Assembly (NCBI RefSeq): GCF_014191605.1
Contig: NZ_JACHWU010000001.1
Location: 558,001 to 622,000, forward strand
Source of the DNA: Prauserella isguenensis
GTDB taxonomy: Bacteria; Actinomycetota; Actinomycetes; Mycobacteriales; Pseudonocardiaceae
DNA length: 64,000 nt
Reading direction: 5' to 3'
Positions 30,265-42,881 of the stretch are shown here, piece after piece. The position numbers and the translations under genes were made by a program. Position 1 is the stretch's first letter, and every line of letters begins with the position of its first letter. Below the pieces are notes generated by a model. It did no database searches. It had not been told where the DNA came from and saw nothing but the letters and a program-made list of their open reading frames with translations.

Positions 30265-31866
30265 GTGCGAACGCTCGCGGCGTTGCTGGCGACGGTGCTG
30301 CTCGGCGCGGTCGCGCTGACCGGATGCAGCGCGCCCGCCCGGACGCAGGAGCCGGAACCGAAGCGCAAGCCCAACGTGGTCGTGGTGATGACCGACGACC
30401 AGTGGCTCGAGTCCATGCGCGTCATGCCGCGGACGCAGCACCTGATCGGTGACGCCGGAGTGACGTTCGACCGGAACTACGCGTCGTTCCCCCTGTGCTG
30501 CCCGTCACGCTCGACATTCCTCAGTGGACAGTTCGCGCACAACAACGGCGTTCGGCACAACTATCCGCCACAGGGCGGCTACCTCAACCTCGACGAGCAG
30601 GACACCCTGCCCGTGTGGATGCAGCGGGCCGGGTACACCACCTCGCACATCGGCAAGTACCCGAACGGCTACGGCTACCGGGACGAGACGGAGGTGCCAC
30701 CCGGCTGGGACGAATGGCGCGGCTCCGTCGACCCCACCACGTATCGCATGTGGGGATACCGGCTCAACGAGAACGGCAAGCTGCACACCTACGGCAGGCC
30801 GCACGTCGAGGACCCGGAGCTCTACCAGACCGACGTGTACCGCGACAAAGGCGCGGACTTCATCGCCCGCCACGCGACGTCACGTAAGCCGTTCTTCCTG
30901 AGCATGGCCTTCCTGGCCCCGCACTCGGAGAACACGGGCGTCGGGCCCGCGCCGCGGCCCGCACCGCGCCACGAGGGCGCGTTCGCCGACGAACCCCTGC
31001 CCAGCGGTCCCGCCTTCAACGAGAAGGACCTGGGCGACAAACCGTCCTTCCTGCAACGCAGGCCACGGCTCGACACGGCAGACCGGTCCAGGCTCACCGA
31101 GAGCTACCGGGGTCGACTGGCATCGCTGCGGGCCGTGGACGAGGCCGTGCAGAAGCTGGTCGACACGCTGCGAGCCACCGGCCAACTGGACAACACGTAC
31201 GTCCTGTTCACATCGGACAACGGGTTCTTCTTCGGCCAACATCGCGTGCACACCGGCAAGTACCTGCCGCACGAGGCGTCGGCGCACGTGCCGATGCTGA
31301 TCCGCGGCCCCGGCCTTCCGGCGGGCCGCCACTCCCGGGAACTGACCGGCAATGCCGACCTGACCGCGACGATCGCGGAGATCGCCCGAGCCGAGCCGGG
31401 CCACGCACTCGACGGGCGGTCCCTGCTGCCGTTCGCCGAGCATCCGCAGCGACGCACCACACGGCCGGTGCTGCACGAAGCCGCGACCGGTGCCCAGCCC
31501 GACGCACTGAAGGCCGACAGCGAGCGCGGTCTCGAGGGCGCGTCCGGCCGAGCCGCCGCGGAGGGCAACCTGGACCAGGAAGGCACGGCGTGGTCCAGGG
31601 TCGAGACCGACGAGCAGGAGAAGGGGGAGATCACCTCGGCGTCCTACGAGGCGATCCGCACCGACCGGTACCTCTACATCCGCTATGCCAGCGGGGATCG
31701 GGAGCTCTACGACCTGCGCACCGACCCGCACGAGCTGACCTCACGGCACGACGATCCCCGGTACACCGCGCCACGCCGTTTCCTCGACCGGCAACTGGAC
31801 GAGCTCCAGGACTGCCGGGGCGAGGAGTGCCGAACGGACATTTCGCCGGCTCCCGCGCCGACGTAA
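30265..31866 (+). CDS. Secreted lipoprotein sulfatase
   Basis: 533 residues from GTG 30265, which has GGGAG at optimal spacing and yields an immediate lipoprotein signal peptide (L-L-A-T-V-L-L-G-A-V-A-L-T-G-C, lipid Cys about residue 21). ATGs at 30226 and 30235 are less likely. The sulfatase core has N-V-V-V-V-M-T-D-D-Q near 39-48 and the formylglycine motif C78-C-P-S-R, whose Cys78 should be oxidised by a formylglycine-generating enzyme. F-T-S-D-N-G-F-F-F-G-Q-H is the second metal site. It resembles arylsulfatase A/N-acetylglucosamine-6-sulfatase-type enzymes that remove sulfate from sugars outside the cell. Confidence 0.93.
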   Translation: MRTLAALLATVLLGAVALTGCSAPARTQEPEPKRKPNVVVVMTDDQWLESMRVMPRTQHLIGDAGVTFDRNYASFPLCCPSRSTFLSGQFAHNNGVRHNYPPQGGYLNLDEQDTLPVWMQRAGYTTSHIGKYPNGYGYRDETEVPPGWDEWRGSVDPTTYRMWGYRLNENGKLHTYGRPHVEDPELYQTDVYRDKGADFIARHATSRKPFFLSMAFLAPHSENTGVGPAPRPAPRHEGAFADEPLPSGPAFNEKDLGDKPSFLQRRPRLDTADRSRLTESYRGRLASLRAVDEAVQKLVDTLRATGQLDNTYVLFTSDNGFFFGQHRVHTGKYLPHEASAHVPMLIRGPGLPAGRHSRELTGNADLTATIAEIARAEPGHALDGRSLLPFAEHPQRRTTRPVLHEAATGAQPDALKADSERGLEGASGRAAAEGNLDQEGTAWSRVETDEQEKGEITSASYEAIRTDRYLYIRYASGDRELYDLRTDPHELTSRHDDPRYTAPRRFLDRQLDELQDCRGEECRTDISPAPAPT

Positions 31867-32700: not shown

Positions 32701-33924
32701 ATGAGCTGGCAAGAAGAGCTGCGACGTCTCGATGCCCAGCTCACCGCCGGTGCCCTCACCGAGGCCGAACACCGGCGCAAACGGGACGAGATCCTCGCCG
32801 AGGCCTCCTCCGACGGCGACGGCGGTGGAAATGGCGGTGGCCACGGCGACGGCGGTGGCACCAGCAACACCGGTGACGGCGACCCCTCGCCGCAGCAGGG
32901 CGCCACCGGCCGGTCGACGACGGCCCCTGCCGCCGGGTCCGGGGAGCAAACCTCCGACGGGCCGACGTGGGCGGCCGCCAACCCCGCAGCCGCCGCGCAG
33001 CTGTCCGCGAGCCGCGACTCCTCCGACGTCCGGCCCGACGCGAACCGGCCGAGCTCGTCGCAGAACCGCTCGTCGCTGAACCCGTCGTCGCAGCCGCCCT
33101 CGACGGCCCGCCGGGCACCCGCTCCCCTGTTCGTGCCGCACACGCCCGCGAACGGCTCCACCAGGCCGGCCGAGCAGGGCCAGTTCGGTGCGGGCCTGCC
33201 GCCGGTGGACATTGACGAGACGTCCCAGGCGAGCGACTATCCCGACTTCTCGGCACCTGCGAAGAAGCGCAGAGGCACCTGGATCGTCGTGCCGCTGGTG
33301 ATCCTCCTGGTCCTCGGTGGCGTGATCGGCGGTGCATGGTGGCTCGGCACCTCCGGGGACGGCGCGACCTCATCCGCTCCGGCGTCCGACACGCTGGCCG
33401 ACCCGGACGGCGACGACGAGGGCGGCGGCGAGGGCAGCGGCGACGAGGCCTCACTCAGCGACCGCCTTCCCGAACTGCCCGGCGAGCCGAGTCCTGACAA
33501 CTCGACGATGTCGGTCGACCGCGCCCTCGACCTGGGATTCATCACCGACGTCGACGCCGAGTCGATGCGCAAGTTCGGCGTGGCCGACCTCGTCTACCGC
33601 GCCTCCGCCGAGGGCCGACAGGGTTACAGCCTCCTCGTGGCACGTAGCCCCAGCGAGCAGAAGGCCGTGGGCCTGCAGCGCGCCATGAACACGACCCTGG
33701 TCAAGGAAGGGTTCAGCAACGGGCGGCTGCACGACGACCCGCGGTTCATCTCCTTCACCGGCGAGCAAGCCGACGGCCGGGTGAGCATCGTCTGGTACGC
33801 GTCCGGCAACAAGGCCGTCGGCATCGGCGTCTCCCAGCCGACCGGCGGCGACGAGCGGAAACTGATCGGCCGTCTCGAGGAAACCCTCACCTCCCTGCAG
33901 GACGCGCTCCCCGCGTCGTCGTGA
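32701..33924 (+). CDS. Single-pass membrane protein with SHOCT-like N-terminus (paralogue A)
   Basis: 407 residues from ATG 32701. The N-terminus [20 protein letters not shown] is a short helical-hairpin motif like SHOCT or tail-interaction modules. It is followed by about 165 disordered Gly/Ser/Pro residues, one membrane helix (about 202-222, [15 protein letters not shown]), an acidic linker, and an outside domain of about 140 residues ([15 protein letters not shown] onward). The next gene has the same architecture and N-terminal motif, so the two are paralogues. Function unknown. They head the glycan-like region. Confidence 0.85.
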
Positions 33925-34128
33925 AGCCGCGGCGGTCGGGTTCCGCCACCCACGTGGACGAGCACGTCGTTCGAAAGAAGCGTTCCGGTGACCGGCCGGA
34001 ATCGGCGAGGTCACAAAATGACCCACGCCTCCTCACGGCCTGCACGCCGTGCAGAATGAGCGCAGTTCGAACACATCGCAGGAAGCGGCCGCCCGTGCCG
34101 GCGGCGCTGATCGAGCAGGGGGTACGTG

Positions 34129-35613
34129 GTGTCCTGGCAGGAAGAGTTGCGCAAGCTGGACGAGGAGCTTGCAGCCGGCAGACTCTCCGCTGACGACTAC
34201 CGCGTGCGGCGCGACCAGGTGCTGTCGTCGGCCGTCACGCATGGTGACGAAGCCGCGGGCGCCGCTCAGGCTCAGACACCGGGGCAAGCACCCGGCCAGC
34301 CCGGCCAGACCCAGCAGCCCGGTCAGCCGGACCCGGCCCAGCAACAGCAGCCCCAGCAACAAGCGCAGCAACAGCAGCCGCCCCAGGCACAGCAGGCCCA
34401 GCCGCCCCAGGCACAGGCACCACAGCAGGCGCAGCAGCAGAACCCCCAGAAGCCCGAGCCGCAGAACCCGCAACAGCCCCAGCAGAACCCGCAGCAACCC
34501 CAGAACCCGCAACAGCCCCAGAACCCCCAGCAGCCGGCGAACCAGAACCAGGGCGGCGACGCCAGTTCGACGCAGGTCATCGCCCCGGTGACCCCGCCGC
34601 CCGGGCAGGCGGCCCAGCCGTCGCAGGCCGCCCAGCCGAATGGCGACCCCGAGGCCACGCAGGCGGTTCGCCCCTCGGACCCGGAGGCGACGCAGGCGGT
34701 CCGGCCCGGTGACGCCGAGGCCACGCAGGCCGTCCAGCCGGTGGCTCCGCCGCAGCCGCCGTACCAGCCGCAGGCCTCCCCCGCCGCGGGCTTCCCGCAG
34801 CCCGCGCAGGCGCAGCAGCCGTGGAACGCGCCCGAGGTCGACCAGAGCCCGCCGTGGGGCGGCGAGTTCCCGCCGGTCTCGCCCGGAAACTCGGCCGACT
34901 GGGGCCAGGGCCCCGAGGACTCGTTCGAGAGCGAGTCGAAGGGCGGCAAGGGCAAGATCTTCGCGATCCTCGGCGCCGTCGTGCTGCTGGCTGGTATCGC
35001 CACGGGCGCGTTCTTCCTGTTCGGCTCCGGTGACGCCGACAACCAGGCGGGTGGCGGCAACCAGGGTCAGCAGGGCGGTGGCGGCAACAGCAGCAGCCAG
35101 GCCCCGCCGCCGCAGGACGACATGCCACTCGAGGGCCAGCAGGGCGAGATCGAGGACAGCGCATCGCTCGACTCGTGGGACGACATCGCCAGCATCAACC
35201 TGCTCACCGACGACGAGTCGTCCGCCTACCAGAGCGCGGGCCCCGGCGAAGCCGAGTACGCCGTGTACCGGCACGACGGCGGCAAGGTCAAGACGGTCGT
35301 GCTCATGGTGAAGGTCGCCGACCAGGACGCCGCGTCGGCCGCGGTGGGCGAGCTGCGCGACATCCAGCTCAAGAACAACCAGAAGAACACGTCCGTCAAC
35401 GGCGTTCCCGGTTCGGTCCAGGTCACCGAGATCCAGCAGAAGAAGGACAAGGGCAAGGTCACCCAGCCCGCGACGATGCGTGCGCACTACCTGTCCGGCG
35501 ACGTGCTGGTGCGCATCGAGGGCTGGTCCGGCGAGGAGAAACTCGGCGCCATCCGGGACAAGTTCGAGGCGACGTTGAACACCCAGCTCGAGAACCTGCC
35601 CGCCGATGAGTGA
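34129..35613 (+). CDS. Gln/Pro-rich single-pass membrane protein (paralogue B)
   Basis: 494 residues from GTG 34129, six bases after AGGGGG. GTG 34126 is possible but too close. The N-terminal S-W-Q-E-E-L-R-K-L-D-E-E-L-A-A-G matches paralogue A. Next comes a Gln/Pro-rich stretch (about 45-145), three 11-residue D-P-E-A-T-Q-A-V-R-P repeats (Thr177, Thr188, Thr199), a membrane helix near 284-304 and an extracytoplasmic domain (about 340-494). The stop overlaps the start of the giant glycosyltransferase by 8 bp, so translation is coupled. The repeats resemble Ser/Thr-kinase sites read by FHA domains (inference). Confidence 0.85.
   Translation: MSWQEELRKLDEELAAGRLSADDYRVRRDQVLSSAVTHGDEAAGAAQAQTPGQAPGQPGQTQQPGQPDPAQQQQPQQQAQQQQPPQAQQAQPPQAQAPQQAQQQNPQKPEPQNPQQPQQNPQQPQNPQQPQNPQQPANQNQGGDASSTQVIAPVTPPPGQAAQPSQAAQPNGDPEATQAVRPSDPEATQAVRPGDAEATQAVQPVAPPQPPYQPQASPAAGFPQPAQAQQPWNAPEVDQSPPWGGEFPPVSPGNSADWGQGPEDSFESESKGGKGKIFAILGAVVLLAGIATGAFFLFGSGDADNQAGGGNQGQQGGGGNSSSQAPPPQDDMPLEGQQGEIEDSASLDSWDDIASINLLTDDESSAYQSAGPGEAEYAVYRHDGGKVKTVVLMVKVADQDAASAAVGELRDIQLKNNQKNTSVNGVPGSVQVTEIQQKKDKGKVTQPATMRAHYLSGDVLVRIEGWSGEEKLGAIRDKFEATLNTQLENLPADE
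34645..34743 (+). repeat. Three 33-bp in-frame repeats coding D-x-E-A-T-Q-A-V-x-P
   Basis: Three consecutive 33-bp units within paralogue B encode D-P-E-A-T-Q-A-V-R-P-S, D-P-E-A-T-Q-A-V-R-P-G and D-A-E-A-T-Q-A-V-Q-P-V. The codons differ between copies (ACG/GCG/GCC mixtures) while the residues stay, which suggests selection on the peptide rather than recent duplication. Confidence 0.85.
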
Positions 35614-38600
35614 GCCGACGCAGGCCAGCGGCGACCTGACCGTGGTCACCGCGTGCACCATCGTCGCCCGCAACTACCTGCCCGCGGCACGTGTGCTCGC
35701 CGCGTCGTACCTGAAGCACCATCCGGGGCACCAGTTCGTCGTCGGCGTCATCGACAGCGACCGCGGTATCGACACCACGGCCCCGGGCGACGACGAGACG
35801 GTCATCGACGGGATGCACATCGTCGGGCCGTCGGCGTTCGGGATCGACTCCGAAACGTACCTGCGCATGGCGACGGCGTACTCGATCACCGAGCTGGCGA
35901 CCGCCGTCAAGCCGTACCTGCTGCGTGAACTCCGGGCCAGCTCGTCGGTGGTGATCTACCTCGACCCGGACATCCAGGTGTTCTCGCCGATGCCGGAGGT
36001 CGCCGAGCTGGCCCTCGAGCACAGCATCGTGCTCACCCCGCACTTCACCGCGCCGCTCCCGCGCGACGGCAAGGAGCCCGACGACGCGGTCATCATGGGT
36101 ACCGGCATCTTCAACCTCGGGTTCGTCGGTGTCGGGCCGGGTTCGGAGGAGTTCCTCGAGTTCTGGGCGGGCAGGCTGCGGCAGGACGCGATCGTCGCGC
36201 CCGCCGAGCAGCTGTTCACCGATCAGCGCTGGGTCGACCAGGTGCCCGCGTTGTTCCGGCACGTGGTGCTCACCGACCCGGGCTTCAACGTCGCGTACTG
36301 GAACCTGCACGAACGCCCCGTCGAGCGCGCCGACGACGGCACGCTCACCGCGGGCGACCACCCGTTGCGATTCTTCCACTTCTCCGGGTACCGCCCCGAG
36401 AAGCCGTGGCTGCTGACGTTCCACTGCGCCCGCAACCCGCGGGTGCTGCTGTCGGACAACCCTGACCTGCGCGCCCTGTGCGACGCCTACGGTGCGGCGC
36501 TCAAGTCCTCCGGGTACGCCGAGACCCTGGACGCGATCCCGTACGGCTTCGCCACATTCGGCGACGGCACACCGCTGCCCGCGGGCTGCAGGCGACTGTT
36601 CCGCGACGGGTGGATCGCCGCCGAGACGCCGGACGAGACGGGCCGCGGCGCGGGCCGCCGCGAACCGATGCCGCCGCATGCCTACGGCGAGGACGGTGGC
36701 GAAGCGCTGCGCGCGTGGCTGTCGGCGCCCGCCGACCACGCGCAGGCCGCCGCAGGCCTGAACCGCATGACGATGGCGGTCTGGCGCGAGCGGACGGACC
36801 TGCAACTGGCGTTCCCGCACCCGACGGCTGCCGACGCCGAGGGATTCCGGGCCTGGTGCGACGGCTCCGGTGTCGCCGAACAGGTGCTGCCCGACTGGGC
36901 ACTGCCCCACCGGCAACCCGAGCCGCGCGAACCGGACGAGGACTTCGGCGTCAACCTCCTCGGCTACCTGACCGCGGAGCTCGGCCTCGGCGAGATGGGC
37001 CGCGTCATCCACGACGCGATCGTCGACGCGGGTGTCGAGGTGGCGTCCGTGGTCGAGGAGAAGGCGGTGTCGAACCGCACCGGCGTCCAGCGGCCCGCCA
37101 CGGTCGGCGACCCGCGGTTCCCGCTCAGCATCATCGCCGTCAACGCCGACCAGACACGCCTCGCAGCGTCGACGCACCCCGACGTCGTCCACGACCGGTA
37201 CCGCATCGGCCTGTGGGCCTGGGAGCTCGAGGACTTCCCCGAGTGGCAGCACGAGGCGTTCTCGATGGTCGACGAGGTGTGGACGGTCAGCGACTTCTGC
37301 CGCGACGCGTTCGCCGCCCACGCGCCCGTGCCGGTGAAGACCATTCCCGTGCCGGTGCGCGATCCGGGCCCGACCGCGCGCATGCGCAAGGCGGGCGATC
37401 CGACGCGGTTCCTGTACGCGTTCGACTTCAACAGTGTCGGCGAGCGCAAGAACCCGTGGGGTGCGGTCGAGGCGTTCCGGATCGCATTCGAGAGCCGCAC
37501 CGACGCGCGGCTCGTGCTCAAGACGATCAACGGCGACCTGCACCCGCAGGCCGCGGAACGCCTGCGCACGATGGTCGCCGACGACGCCCGCATCGAGCTC
37601 GTCGAGGGCTACCTCAGCGCCGGCGAGCTGGCCGACCTGTATGCCTCCGCCGACTGCTATGTGTCGCTGCACCGCAGTGAGGGCTTCGGGTTGACCGTCG
37701 CCGAGGCGATGGCGCGCGGCATGCCGGTGATCAGCACCGCGTACTCGAGCACCACGGAGTTCCTCGACGCCGACACCGGCTGGCCGATCCCGTACCGGCT
37801 GGTGTCGGTCGGCGACGACTGTGAGCCGTACCACCCCGGTGCGCTGTGGGCCGAGCCCGACGTCGACGCCGCGGCCGAGGCGATGCGCCAGGTCGCCGAC
37901 GTGCCCGCGGAGGCCTCCCGCCGGGGCCGCGCCGCCAGGGAACACATCCTGCGCACGCGATCGATGGAGACCGCGTCGAGGTGGTTGCGCACCGAGCTGG
38001 CACGCGCGCACCGAACGTGGCTCGACCGCCGCAGGGCCGCCGAGGAGACACCCGCGCCCGAGGACCCGTTGACGCCGATGCGGCAGTCCCGCGAGGCGCT
38101 GCGCTGGCGGCCCGAAACGGGGGCCGCCGCGCGCTCTCCGATCGCACCCGCGCTGCGGAAGGCCGTGCTGCGACTGCTGGACCACTACGACGTCCACCAG
38201 CGCAAGGTGCTCGGCACGCTGCAGGACGGGTCCGAAGCGACCATGCAGCGGTTGCTCGGCCGGATCGAAGCGCTCGAACGGTCCGTGGAGGCGACGTCGA
38301 GCGACGCCGCGGAGGCGCGCGAGGCGGCCCGCAGGCAGGAGAAACGGGCCGAGCAGCTGCGCCGCACCGTGGACGAGCTGCGCCAGGCCGAGACCGTCGG
38401 CGTCGACGAGTTCCGCAGCAGCAGGGCCGACATCGGGAAGGTCGCCGACCGGCTCGCGCACCTGTCGGCCGACGTCGACCGGCGGCACGAGGCGATGCAC
38501 GAACTGATCCAGGCGCGGGACCAGCGGTTCGACAACGACGAGCACGCCCTCCAGCGGCTCGGCCGCGACCTCGAGGCGGTGCTGGAGGCGGCACGGCTCG

Positions 38601-39385
38601 TGCACGCCCCCATCCCCGAGGGCGGCGACGTCGTCGTGTGCGACGCCGGTGCGCTGCTGCTGCCCGTCGACGACGTGATGCTGCCGTGGATCCGCCACCA
38701 CCGGTCGTGGGAACGCGACGAGGCACAGCTGTTGACGCAGCTCGCGCAGCGGCGGCCGGGCGCGTTCCTGGACCTCGGCGCCCACGTCGGCTATCACACG
38801 TTGAGCCTGCTGCGGTCGTCACCGGCCGTCACGAACGTCGTCGCCGTCGAGGCCGATCCGACGAACGCGGAGTACCTGCGCCGCAACCTGGCCGTGAACC
38901 TGCCGAAGGACCGTTCGGGACTGGTCAGCGTGCTGGAAGCGGCCGCATGGGACGGCGACGGCAACCTCGTGCTGGCCCACCCCGACGAGCGCAACAGCGG
39001 CGACCACCGGGTCCGCGAACCGGACGGCACGGCCGGACTCATGGTTCACGCCGTGCGGCTCGACGGCCACACCGACGTGCTGCGGCAGCCGGTGGGCCTG
39101 GTCAAGACCGACCTGCAGGGTCGCGACCATCGGGCGCTCGCCGGGTTGCAGGAGACCCTCGAGCGGGACCGGCCGGACGTGCTGTGCGAGTTCTCGCCGG
39201 AGGCGATCGAGGAGTTCGGCGACGACCCGATCGCCGTGCTGAGCGCCTACCGGAAGTGGGGATACCAGCCGGTCGAACTGCTCGCCGACGGCACGCTCGC
39301 CGACGACGAGCCGGACGACACACTCGTCCACCGCGCCCGCATGGACCAGCGCGGCTTCACCACCCTCTGGCTCCGCCCCCAGTAA
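35606..39385 (+). CDS. Trimodular glycosyltransferase - glycosyltransferase - coiled coil - FkbM methyltransferase
   Basis: 1259 residues. Module 1 (about 10-330) is a GT8-like nucleotide-sugar transferase with D-P-D (Y-L-D-P-D-I-Q-V) as metal site. Module 2 (about 446-815) is a GT4-type glycosyltransferase, with N-L-L-G-Y-L-T-A-E-L-G-L-G-E opening it and S-E-G-F-G-L-T-V-A-E-A-M near 689. Then comes a heptad-rich coiled coil (about 870-1000). Module 4 (about 1020-1259) is an FkbM-type methyltransferase with F-L-D-L-G-A-H-V-G-Y-H-T near 1053. It should build and methylate a surface glycan at the inner membrane face. ATG 35606 overlaps paralogue B, implying coupled synthesis. No signal peptide is seen. 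Confidence 0.92.
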   Translation: MSEPTQASGDLTVVTACTIVARNYLPAARVLAASYLKHHPGHQFVVGVIDSDRGIDTTAPGDDETVIDGMHIVGPSAFGIDSETYLRMATAYSITELATAVKPYLLRELRASSSVVIYLDPDIQVFSPMPEVAELALEHSIVLTPHFTAPLPRDGKEPDDAVIMGTGIFNLGFVGVGPGSEEFLEFWAGRLRQDAIVAPAEQLFTDQRWVDQVPALFRHVVLTDPGFNVAYWNLHERPVERADDGTLTAGDHPLRFFHFSGYRPEKPWLLTFHCARNPRVLLSDNPDLRALCDAYGAALKSSGYAETLDAIPYGFATFGDGTPLPAGCRRLFRDGWIAAETPDETGRGAGRREPMPPHAYGEDGGEALRAWLSAPADHAQAAAGLNRMTMAVWRERTDLQLAFPHPTAADAEGFRAWCDGSGVAEQVLPDWALPHRQPEPREPDEDFGVNLLGYLTAELGLGEMGRVIHDAIVDAGVEVASVVEEKAVSNRTGVQRPATVGDPRFPLSIIAVNADQTRLAASTHPDVVHDRYRIGLWAWELEDFPEWQHEAFSMVDEVWTVSDFCRDAFAAHAPVPVKTIPVPVRDPGPTARMRKAGDPTRFLYAFDFNSVGERKNPWGAVEAFRIAFESRTDARLVLKTINGDLHPQAAERLRTMVADDARIELVEGYLSAGELADLYASADCYVSLHRSEGFGLTVAEAMARGMPVISTAYSSTTEFLDADTGWPIPYRLVSVGDDCEPYHPGALWAEPDVDAAAEAMRQVADVPAEASRRGRAAREHILRTRSMETASRWLRTELARAHRTWLDRRRAAEETPAPEDPLTPMRQSREALRWRPETGAAARSPIAPALRKAVLRLLDHYDVHQRKVLGTLQDGSEATMQRLLGRIEALERSVEATSSDAAEAREAARRQEKRAEQLRRTVDELRQAETVGVDEFRSSRADIGKVADRLAHLSADVDRRHEAMHELIQARDQRFDNDEHALQRLGRDLEAVLEAARLVHAPIPEGGDVVVCDAGALLLPVDDVMLPWIRHHRSWERDEAQLLTQLAQRRPGAFLDLGAHVGYHTLSLLRSSPAVTNVVAVEADPTNAEYLRRNLAVNLPKDRSGLVSVLEAAAWDGDGNLVLAHPDERNSGDHRVREPDGTAGLMVHAVRLDGHTDVLRQPVGLVKTDLQGRDHRALAGLQETLERDRPDVLCEFSPEAIEEFGDDPIAVLSAYRKWGYQPVELLADGTLADDEPDDTLVHRARMDQRGFTTLWLRPQ

Positions 39386-39459: not shown

Positions 39460-40629
39460 CTACGGGTTGAGCTCGGCGTACGCCAGCAGGTAGGCGCCCC
39501 ACCAGGCGCCTGCGACACACGCGAGGGACAGCACGACCGCCGACACCCATCGCGGCACGCGGGCCAGCAGGAACGCCACCGGGACGGCGAGCGTGATCGC
39601 GGGCAGCAGGAACCGGGCCCGGCAGTTCCAGAACGCGCCCGTGCCGAGCGCCGAGGCCATCATCGCCGCGGTGTAGACGTGTGCGGGCAGCGGAATCGAC
39701 CGAACGAACCACGACGCGACGAGCAGCCCGACGCTCACGACGACGACCGCGGCGAGAATCACCGACCACATGGGCTCGTCGCCGGACACCACCCTGCCGA
39801 GGGTGATCCAGGTGAGCTCGCCGCCGTCGAAGCCCATGTGCCAGGCGTGCTCCTGGATCCAGAACCACGCGTCGAGGCGACCGCCGCGCCACGCGACGTA
39901 CAGCAGGTAGGCGGCCAGTCCCAGCGGTGCGAGCAGCGCGGCGGCCCAGGGGCGCCAGCCGTCACGGCGGCGTGCGATCGCGATCAGCGCCGCGACGCCG
40001 ACGGCCGCGATGAGCGCCACCGCGGTACTTCGCGACAGGCCCGCGAACAGTGTCAATCCGCCCGCGGCCACCCACTGCCGCCGTTCGAGCGCCAGCAACG
40101 TCCACACCGCGATGGCCACGAACAGCGACTCGGAGTAACCCATACGCAGCACGATCGCGCCGGGCGCGACCGCCCAGAGCACAGCCATGAGGTTGCCGAC
40201 GCGCGGACCTCCGAGGCGTGTGCCGAACACGTGCAGTCCCCACGCGGCAACTCCCCCCGCGAGCAGCGACACCAGCAGCAACGCGGCCGCCGCGGGCATG
40301 CCGAACAGCCCGAACACCGACGCCAGCGCGGGCAACAGCGGGAAGAACGCGAGGCTGACCGGTTCGGGGTTGCCGTCGGCGTCGAGGAGGACGTCCTGAC
40401 GGTAGCCGTGCTCGGCGATCTCGGCGTACCAGTGGACGTCGTAGCTGCCGACCAGTTCCGTGAACGACACGCCCGCGCGGTCGGCGACGAGCGCGATGAC
40501 GACGTACGAGACGACCTGGACCGCGTAGAACGCCGTCAGCGCGGGCAGCACCGGCCGGAGCGCGTGCCACGCCCGCTGGCGAAGTGTCGCGGGCGCCGCC
40601 GTCGGGAGCGCGGCGGTCGTGTCGGTCAT
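39460..40629 (-). CDS. PIG-V-like multi-TM mannosyltransferase
   Basis: 389 residues from ATG 40629 (GTG 40641 adds four residues, and neither has a clear ribosome site). About 9-10 membrane helices. The first outside loop reads G-S-Y-D-V-H-W-Y-A-E-I-A-E-H-G-Y, the acidic W/Y motif of PIG-V/GT-C transferases, followed by L-A-F-F-P-L-L-P-A-L. It is expected to use a polyprenyl-phosphate sugar and act on the outer face. Convergent with the trimodular gene, it may add sugars to the same glycan. Confidence 0.85.
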   Translation of the reverse strand: MTDTTAALPTAAPATLRQRAWHALRPVLPALTAFYAVQVVSYVVIALVADRAGVSFTELVGSYDVHWYAEIAEHGYRQDVLLDADGNPEPVSLAFFPLLPALASVFGLFGMPAAAALLLVSLLAGGVAAWGLHVFGTRLGGPRVGNLMAVLWAVAPGAIVLRMGYSESLFVAIAVWTLLALERRQWVAAGGLTLFAGLSRSTAVALIAAVGVAALIAIARRRDGWRPWAAALLAPLGLAAYLLYVAWRGGRLDAWFWIQEHAWHMGFDGGELTWITLGRVVSGDEPMWSVILAAVVVVSVGLLVASWFVRSIPLPAHVYTAAMMASALGTGAFWNCRARFLLPAITLAVPVAFLLARVPRWVSAVVLSLACVAGAWWGAYLLAYAELNP

Positions 40630-40793: not shown

Positions 40794-42881
40794 GTGAGTG
40801 CGTTGGACAGGACGTCGCGCGCTCGGCCGAAGCCGCTCGAAGGCGACGACAAGACCCGCATCTCGTTCGTCGACATGGGCCGTGCGATCGCGGCGCTGCT
40901 GGTGGTCTACTCCCATATCGCCCACCCGTGGGTGCAGGTGAAGGGCGAGAACGCGCCGGTCATCGAGTTCGTGGAGACCTTCAGCAGCGAACCGATGCGC
41001 ATGGCCACCCAGGGCATCGGCCAGGTCGCGGTGCCGTTCTTCTTCCTGGTCAGCGGGTTCATCGTGACCCCGATCGCGATCCGCCAGGGGTACCGGAAGT
41101 TCGCGCTCAACCGGTTCATCCGCGTGTACGCGCCACTTCTGTTCGTACTGTTGTTGACGTCGGCCGCGCTGTGGGCGGGACTGGAACCGCAGTCGACGGG
41201 CCAGTCGCAGGAGCTGACGCCGTGGACGATGTTCACCAACTGGACCCTGGTGAACTACATCCTGTATCCGCAGGTCGTCCTCATGCCGGTGGCCTGGACC
41301 ATGATCATCGAGATCCTCTTCTACCTGATCCTGCTGGCGCTGCTGCCGGTACTGCGGCGGGCGGTGTGGCTGGCGATCGGCATCGAGCTGACGTTCGTGT
41401 TCGTCGTGCTGTCGAGCCGCAGCGAGCTGAACGAGTCGTGGTCGCTGTTCGCGGTCAACGTGTCGTACCTGCCGATCCTGATCATCGGTCAGATCATCTG
41501 GGCGACGACGTCGAAGAAGATCCCGCTGTGGGCGGGCGGCGGGCTCGGCGCGCTGGCGTGGATGCTGTACGTGTACGCCGACATCATCGACGTCGGGCGC
41601 ATCGACGACTCGTACAACCTCGCGATGTCGATCGCCGTGATGTTCTTCCTGATGGGCTACTTCGCCGAACCGAAGCTGCGACAGTTCCGCTTCTGGACGG
41701 CCATGTCGGAGCGCTCGTACTCCATCTATCTGCTGCACGGACTGGGCATCTTCGTCACCCTCGGCCTGCTGCGCCCGACGGTGCCGTTCGCCATCGCGCT
41801 CCCGGTCTCCCTGCTGGTCACGGCGGCGCTGGTCGAGGTCAGCTACCGCGGTGTGGAACGACCGAGCCACGATCTGGCCCGAAGACTGTCACGCCGCGTG
41901 GGCAACGGCGTGGGACGCGGATCCGGTACTGGTGACGCGTCGGACGGTGCTTCGGGTGGCGCCGGCGTGGACGAGTCCCGACGCGAGGACGCCGACGCCG
42001 GAGCCGGACCGCCGAGTGCCGACACCGCCGAGCCGACCGTGCGGCTCCCGGCCGATCACGGCGGCGCGGGGCGGTCCGAGCGCCGCCGTCCCAGCGGCCC
42101 GGAGTCGCTGCCCTCGGAGTCGTTGTCGTCGGGTCCCCAGTCGTCGGAGTCGTTGTCGTCGGGTCCCCAGTCGCCGGGGCCCCTGTCGTCGGAGCCGCTG
42201 GCCTCGAGGTCGCTGTCGGAACCGGCGCCTGTCGACCCGACCCGCTCTCAGCCGCCACGACCGGGCCGGCCGGGACCGCCACAGTCGCAGGCGGAGGGTC
42301 GGCGCTCGGAGCCTGCGCGCCCGGAGCCGCCGGGAACCGATCGTAGGTTCCGGGAACCGCGACCGCCGCGGAACGGACCGCGGTCCGCACCCGAGCCGTC
42401 TCCAGACCATCACGGCCGCGGCGCCGATCCTCACCTCAACGGACGCGGTGGCCCGGGCGACCATCCCGATGCTCGGCCTCGGCCTCGCCCTCGACCGGAC
42501 GGAGCCGAGCCGGTCGCGAACCGCCGCCCGGAACCACCTCCGGACGGGTCCCCGCAGCCGCAACGGTGGCACCCACAGCAGGCTCCGGGCCCCGGTGCCG
42601 ATCCGCGCTGGGAGCAGCCGCGGGCAACCCGCGCGCCCGGATCCTGGCCGGCCGAACGTCCCGACCGGCCGAAGGAGGAACGAAACGGGTCGGAACACGC
42701 CGGCCCCGGGCAGGCACAGCAACGACCGGAACGGATGTCACAGCCACGCCCGCCGGGACCCGAACCGCACCCCCGGCCACCCCGTAGGCCGCCGCGACAA
42801 TCGCCTGAGGATCCGTCTGACGAACGTCGGGTTCCGCCCCGACGTCCGGACGGCGACGACGGTCCGCGGCATGCTCGTTGA
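40794..42881 (+). CDS. Acyltransferase-3 family membrane protein with 300-residue disordered tail
   Basis: 695 residues from GTG 40794. TTG 40803 is better placed behind GAGGGG and may be the true start. The first 365 residues form the acyltransferase-3 fold: F-V-D-M-G-R-A-I-A-A-L-L-V-V-Y-S-H with the catalytic-type His, F-F-F-L-V-S-G-F-I near 83-91 and about ten helices. It would O-acylate a surface sugar. The rest is Pro/Arg/Ser/Gly-rich, disordered and cytoplasmic, with an internal 30-bp repeat. The long tail is unusual for the family. Third-position GC stays high, so it is real coding sequence. Confidence 0.88.
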   Translation: MSALDRTSRARPKPLEGDDKTRISFVDMGRAIAALLVVYSHIAHPWVQVKGENAPVIEFVETFSSEPMRMATQGIGQVAVPFFFLVSGFIVTPIAIRQGYRKFALNRFIRVYAPLLFVLLLTSAALWAGLEPQSTGQSQELTPWTMFTNWTLVNYILYPQVVLMPVAWTMIIEILFYLILLALLPVLRRAVWLAIGIELTFVFVVLSSRSELNESWSLFAVNVSYLPILIIGQIIWATTSKKIPLWAGGGLGALAWMLYVYADIIDVGRIDDSYNLAMSIAVMFFLMGYFAEPKLRQFRFWTAMSERSYSIYLLHGLGIFVTLGLLRPTVPFAIALPVSLLVTAALVEVSYRGVERPSHDLARRLSRRVGNGVGRGSGTGDASDGASGGAGVDESRREDADAGAGPPSADTAEPTVRLPADHGGAGRSERRRPSGPESLPSESLSSGPQSSESLSSGPQSPGPLSSEPLASRSLSEPAPVDPTRSQPPRPGRPGPPQSQAEGRRSEPARPEPPGTDRRFREPRPPRNGPRSAPEPSPDHHGRGADPHLNGRGGPGDHPDARPRPRPRPDGAEPVANRRPEPPPDGSPQPQRWHPQQAPGPGADPRWEQPRATRAPGSWPAERPDRPKEERNGSEHAGPGQAQQRPERMSQPRPPGPEPHPRPPRRPPRQSPEDPSDERRVPPRRPDGDDGPRHAR
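42114..42173 (+). repeat. Two 30-bp direct repeats in the acyltransferase tail
   Basis: TCGGAGTCGTTGTCGTCGGG is the first part of a 30-bp unit present at 42114-42143 and 42144-42173, encoding S-E-S-L-S-S-G-P-Q-S. Degenerate copies flank it, which suggests that the disordered tail grows by slippage. Confidence 0.8.

Follow-up and report, generated by a model that had tools for sequence, protein, structure and literature searches.

A widespread Pseudonocardiaceae protein joining two predicted glycosyltransferase modules, a coiled coil and an FkbM methyltransferase module

A single gene at 35606-39385 of the window (the whole 64,000-nucleotide stretch of Prauserella isguenensis DNA that was analysed) encodes a protein, P0001, in which a GT8-like module, a GT4-type module, a long coil and an FkbM module follow one another. 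The best reading, to which we give a probability of roughly 0.6, is that P0001 is a glycan-assembly enzyme with three catalytic modules, which extends and O-methylates a surface glycan and uses the coil as a spacer. The observed support for this consists of the modules, their intact motifs, their conservation among relatives and the gene neighbourhood. Even with no ruler in it, this is an apparently undescribed, conserved glycan locus of the Pseudonocardiaceae; the open-licence literature yielded no description of the fusion. The features of the gene are as follows (groups A and B are defined below):

35606-39385, + strand: whole gene of P0001; ATG open reading frame, 1259 aa, frame conserved among relatives
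35633-36595, + strand: GT8-like GT-A module, residues about 10-330; fold match to glycogenin/GT8, no Pfam or NCBIfam profile match
35960-35971, + strand: L-D-P-D, residues 119-122, the D-x-D of the GT8-like module (D120, D122)
36941-38005, + strand: GT4-type GT-B module, residues about 446-800; Pfam PF13692, PF00534 and PF20706, fold matches such as 3oy2 and 7qsg
37679-37705, + strand: GT4 motif E-x7-E at residues 692-700; from the motif count among relatives
38141-38260, + strand: conserved motif of 40 residues (846-885) at the coil's base; mean pairwise identity 65.0% in A, 64.1% in B
38147-38599, + strand: helical stretch spanning residues 848-998, with the variable coiled coil at 886-996; from periodicity and AlphaFold2 helices
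38618-39382, + strand: FkbM methyltransferase module, residues about 1005-1259; PF05050, TIGR01444 and motif I

The frame of 1259 codons first called is confirmed as one forward-strand open reading frame with an ATG start, and the FkbM methyltransferase called at its C-terminal end is matched above curated cut-offs by both PF05050 (residues 1056-1221; E 1.1e-13; 52.1 bits against a Pfam cut-off of 22.7) and TIGR01444 (residues 1054-1197; E 2.6e-19; 70.1 bits against 37.7). The module thus belongs to the FkbM family by profile; it has motif I, and methyl-transfer activity is predicted for it. PF05050 has one match in the whole genome (4.95 Mb), which is P0001. The GT4-type assignment was likewise borne out: P0001 has the profile match and the E-x7-E motif by which membership is judged, the Pfam matches being confined to residues 573-791 (best E 4.8e-13). 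In an AlphaFold2 model of residues 441-1259 (whole-model pTM 0.48, the methyltransferase fold having higher confidence than the coil), the GT4 fold is matched best by 3oy2, GlgM and BshA; a mycobacterial methylmannose-polysaccharide mannosyltransferase stands at rank 12.

The first module is another matter. Residues 1-455 match nothing in Pfam (E up to 0.1) or NCBIfam (E up to 0.01), GT8 profiles included. The AlphaFold2 model of these residues (pLDDT 80.0) has a GT8 enzyme, rabbit glycogenin 1ll0, as its top Foldseek match (E 5.2e-07, 14% identity); it also matches LgtC and other GT8 chains, but GT6 chains too. The original prediction of a GT8-like D-P-D module therefore stands by fold and by its D-x-D, and not by sequence profile. 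We take the stretch HFSGYRPEKPW (residues 258-268) to resemble a GT8 signature.

P0001 is 97% identical to a protein of Prauserella aidingensis, and the gene was found in all seven genomes sampled from the genus (in G003 the match falls into two pieces within a single 1293-aa frame). Matches were obtained in 44 of 60 genomes, and 36 of 46 genera, in the family sample (E up to 1e-30; 11 candidates scored per genome). Sixty-eight rows were tabulated: 26 with the whole fusion, methyltransferase included by definition (‘A’: P0001 and 25 others); eight that have the two GT modules but lack the methyltransferase (‘A′’); two from another family of the same order, with the GTs, a shorter coil and no methyltransferase (‘O’); and 32, 30-35% identical, with the complete layout (‘B’: L052-L055 and L115-L142). 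Left out were L095 (same place as L018, P. muralis) and, as partial, a second frame of L113, L146 and L058-L060. Among the B rows, N stretches occur in L129, L135 and L141, and L140 stops at a contig end.

As A is defined by carrying the methyltransferase, the fusion within A is not itself a result; the fair count runs over A and A′ together, where 26 of 34 rows have the whole fusion and eight end before the methyltransferase. Homologues split at the linkers had been named as a sign against the original prediction. The methyltransferase is indeed absent in those eight of 34 rows, but the GT8-like and GT4 modules are joined in 34 of 34, and no splitting was seen among the 26 fusion rows, a group defined by its methyltransferase. 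The proposed search for the same domain order was answered: it recurs in 26 genomes, that of the window included, at 46-97% pairwise identity. In 98 genomes sampled from the class and 100 from the phylum (E up to 1e-20; up to six candidates scored per genome), the window's own was the only whole-fusion match among the matches listed, and among 87 plasmid records none covers 80% of P0001.

The catalytic motifs divide these groups. D-x-D of the GT8-like module (D120, D122) is present in 26/26 A, 0/8 A′, 2/2 O and 0/32 B rows; the GT4 lysine, K615, in 26/26, 8/8, 2/2 and 0/32; E-x7-E in 25/26 (in L105 the second glutamate is Q), 8/8, 2/2 and 0/32; and FkbM motif I in 26/26, 0/8, 0/2 and 30/32, the two exceptions in B being L140, cut at its contig end, and L141, masked there. 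The A′ rows, then, lack D-x-D and FkbM together in eight cases of eight and nevertheless keep GT4, a pattern which suggests that the GT8 and FkbM modules serve the same product. The link is not general: in the 32 B rows an FkbM module is present although neither GT site survives, and both O rows retain D-x-D without a fused FkbM. Some of the A′ changes at D-x-D are mild (LHPD, LQPD, LDAE), so that loss of GT8 activity in A′ is something we infer from the residues.

A quick tree (68 rows, residues 10-800) places B in a single clade (SH-aLRT 100) and needs at least two origins of A′ on its starred branches. In a careful tree built from GT4 only, the starred branches force no more than one; A′ is a single clade in 0 of its 200 bootstrap trees, and the AU test rejects that clade (p 0.023). 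The quick tree, the bootstrap and the AU test together indicate that the state lacking both D-x-D and FkbM probably arose more than once; loss may be likelier than late gain, as B shares the coil and the methyltransferase.

The B proteins have their catalytic residues gone from two GT modules whose mean pairwise identity is still 54.0% and 49.2%; the transferases are apparently dead, the GT-like sequence being kept as in a scaffold. At 31 of 32 loci the B gene comes after a gene for glutamine synthetase; we take this to be the glnA2 locus. This second ancient copy, whose coil and methyltransferase sit on a pair of apparently dead transferases, may be a measuring or methylating scaffold. Even with no ruler, B marks a paralogue family whose transferase modules seem turned into scaffolds. 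The two derived paralogue types, A′ (without FkbM and without D-x-D) and B (with apparently dead transferases), are both new here.

The genes around P0001 were compared with those of the 25 other A loci (flanks of 3 to 7 kb, some ending at contig ends; neighbour genes called with our own codon-usage script). Those of the window are:

32701-33924, + strand: second SHOCT-like protein; SHOCT match under cut-off, same blast family as the 34126-35613 protein
34126-35613, + strand: SHOCT-like protein, probably membrane-anchored; weak DUF1707/SHOCT-like match under cut-off, membrane segment from sequence
39460-40629, - strand: membrane protein weakly like a family of cell-surface glycopolymer formation; NF046093, 33 bits against a cut-off of 150
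40794-42881, + strand: Acyl_transf_3 membrane O-acyltransferase; PF01757, E 3.4e-26

The last 8 nt of the adjacent SHOCT-like gene are also the first 8 nt of the fusion gene. Of the 25 A loci, 23 (all but L109 and L110) have a homologue as the next gene upstream, with the same 8-nt overlap in 17 of 25, and all eight A′ loci have one beside the gene. In both SHOCT-like proteins of the window the linkers are of low complexity and rich in Pro and Gln, and a membrane segment is likely. The convergent membrane protein, a possible GT-C enzyme, has homologues in 11 of 25 A loci. Of the 25 A loci 24 have an Acyl_transf_3 homologue close by, as do two of eight A′ loci; the single A locus without one, L105, has an AlgX-type SGNH protein (Pfam ALGX, 1.5e-21), a family also found near five further A loci, which do have Acyl_transf_3. 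AlgX-type SGNH proteins lie beside loci without Acyl_transf_3 at L111 4459-5751, L112 10848-12149, L113 7707-8966 and L105 5242-6441.

Methylation recurs around the locus. Among the A′ rows, L111 and L112 have a separate class I methyltransferase gene, overlapping or adjacent, and L051 has two separate methyltransferases nearby, one of them assigned by blast family; genes of the same blast family are also near three A loci that retain FkbM. At L051 3362-6877 a 1171-aa protein fuses a class I methyltransferase to a GT2 beside the A′ gene. Apparently outside the conserved block, the window has a nucleotide-sugar dehydrogenase (TIGR03026; 45257-46459, 6 kb downstream) and a sulfatase (30265-31866, 4 kb upstream).

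In the coil, residues 853-996 have a hydrophobic periodicity power of 9.3 at period 3.5, a value reached by none of 1000 shuffles, and a maximum of 15.3 at 3.54; among 16 segments of 144 residues along P0001 the periodicity is 12.7 in the one at 865 and at most 4.1 elsewhere. AlphaFold2 places helices at 848-927 and 933-998, with ten-residue pLDDT means of about 46-71 (low to moderate, in a monomer model). Periodicity and modelled helices together give a helical stretch of about 150 residues, variable in its 886-996 portion, so that the ‘about 130’ heptad-rich residues first reported were a fair estimate. The 40-residue motif at its base was considered as a membrane-anchoring amphipathic helix and rejected: with a moment of 0.44, outside the top 20 segments, it is not unusually amphipathic, and membrane contact through it is therefore not supported.

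Mean pairwise identity in A is 69.7% in the GT8-like module, 69.7% in GT4, 65.0% in the motif, 33.0% in the coil and 60.0% in the methyltransferase; the coil is the least conserved region and is present in all 26 rows despite its diverged sequence. Its length, taken as the distance from D862 to R997, ranges over 122-155 residues in A (136 in 10 of 26) and 88-164 in B (159 in 17 of 32, 157 in six of 32): it drifts where the transferases are intact and is steadier where they look dead. Loss of conservation in the coil had also been named as a sign against the original prediction; presence of the coil is kept, sequence (33%) and length (122-155) are not. A comparison by eye of the length classes for phase-preserving indels was only mildly suggestive. 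The coil of L015 (P. halophila) has 18 more residues than those of its near relatives, at about residues 933-950 of that protein, and retains its heptad peak (17.1 at 3.54). The added stretch partly resembles the 18 residues before it. A tandem duplication was considered here and rejected; the two units match at only 31 of 54 bases, and the change is thus termed an insertion.

In the favoured reading P0001 would be a cytoplasmic, membrane-associated protein, and the co-translated SHOCT-like protein would be its likely membrane partner. Sugars would be added by the GT8-like and GT4 modules to an acceptor, probably lipid-linked; the FkbM module, at the far end of the roughly 150-residue helical coil, would O-methylate the sugar chain; and the neighbouring Acyl_transf_3 enzyme would probably O-acylate the product. 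Acceptor, sugars, membrane association, place of the methyl group and order of steps are conjectural in this scheme. The coil would hold the methyltransferase away from the transferases and oligomerise the protein; an oligomerising spacer between the two is its most likely role.

A second perspective, somewhat short of an even bet, makes no polymer at all: P0001 would tailor a small glycolipid or glycan branch in three steps, GT4 adding one sugar, GT8 another and FkbM a methyl group, and the coil would only oligomerise the protein. All the steps are then in one gene, and no polymerase, flippase or exporter was identified beside it; the A′ rows, which lack D-x-D together with FkbM but retain GT4, also fit. 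However, two rows (L056 and L057) retain GT8 without FkbM, and by sequence such tailoring is indistinguishable from chain building. As the product may be a polymer or a short glycolipid, this alternative and the next overlap with the favoured reading.

The third perspective, that of the original prediction, supposes a built-in ruler: a repeat would be polymerised by the two GT modules, the coil would set the span, and FkbM would methylate the end, stopping growth. We consider it unlikely, and an actinobacterial single-protein glycan machine with its own ruler is possible but not the best reading. In published ruler systems, as far as the cited accounts describe them, the terminator sits at the end of the coil far from the polymerase, and the product leaves by ABC export (PMC11231755, PMC3482155, PMC9587256). 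P0001 resembles them in having two GT modules, a coil and a methyltransferase in one chain, with the terminator distal (PMC11231755); GT modules and would-be terminating enzyme do lie at opposite ends of the coil, as a matter of layout only. A methyltransferase as terminator has a parallel in E. coli O8 WbdD, described in one account as a simple methyltransferase (PMC3482155). Retention of the coil in every A row through so much divergence, and the intact heptad peak of the L015 insertion, also favour it.

Against the ruler stand the drift of coil length in A; the more constant coil of B, whose transferases are apparently dead, whereas a polymer ruler would need the opposite; and the lack of any sign of a repeat polymer. 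Nor was an exporter found in the window: ABC2_membrane (PF01061) has no match there and 15 elsewhere in the genome, the closest of those on this contig lying some 81 kb off, and Wzt_C (PF14524) has none in the whole genome (a control search matched in two of 14 genomes). Of the claim that polymerase, ruler and methyl cap are one protein, then, the layout survives and the function does not gain from coil length, exporter or polymer; polymer, terminal methyl and length control are all unsupported. Were the ruler real, a Gram-negative O-antigen mechanism would extend to actinobacteria, and the natural coil series (122-155, with the 18 extra residues of P. halophila) would predict graded glycan lengths and test it without engineering.

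Nor is joining these parts in one protein as novel as was claimed: polymerase, coil and terminator are already established as one chain in WbbB of Klebsiella pneumoniae O12 and Raoultella terrigena, and a comparable chain is described for ORF6 of K. pneumoniae O7. By the cited accounts, WbbB like P0001 combines a pair of GT modules with a helical spacer and a distal terminator (PMC11231755, PMC9587256); unlike P0001, it has an N-terminal Kdo transferase (GT99) as terminator, its GTs are C-terminal, and an ABC transporter that bears a carbohydrate-binding module exports its product. P0001 has the reverse module order, FkbM as the far-end enzyme and no linked exporter found in the window. O7 ORF6 likewise combines a methyltransferase (with a kinase), a coiled coil and two GT modules (PMC11231755), but the methyltransferase is N-terminal and, as those papers describe it, unlike FkbM and closest to CgnL; kinase and CBM are present, both GT modules are GT2, and the product is a Gram-negative O antigen. 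WbdD and WbdA of E. coli O8 and O9a again provide a dual GT enzyme and a methyltransferase with a coil (PMC11231755, PMC3482155), but as two proteins, WbdD recruiting WbdA, with Wzm/Wzt export. Relative to the single-chain systems these sources describe, what is new here is the actinobacterial setting and the reversed module order.

A frame fusion, assembly error or chance open frame is next to impossible: the window is GC-rich, with many long shadow ORFs (one of 1112 aa on the opposite strand), but the same fusion in 26 genomes, at the identities given above and with catalytic motifs kept, rules it out. A more distant protein has the transferase half alone: WP_148219843.1 of Azospirillum sp. 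B510, a GT8-GT4 protein of 914 aa, is 37% identical over 58% of P0001, in two pieces, and retains the D-P-D, RKNP and EGFG motifs; unlike P0001 it lacks coil and methyltransferase, and a separate methyltransferase gene lies nearby in the sugar locus.
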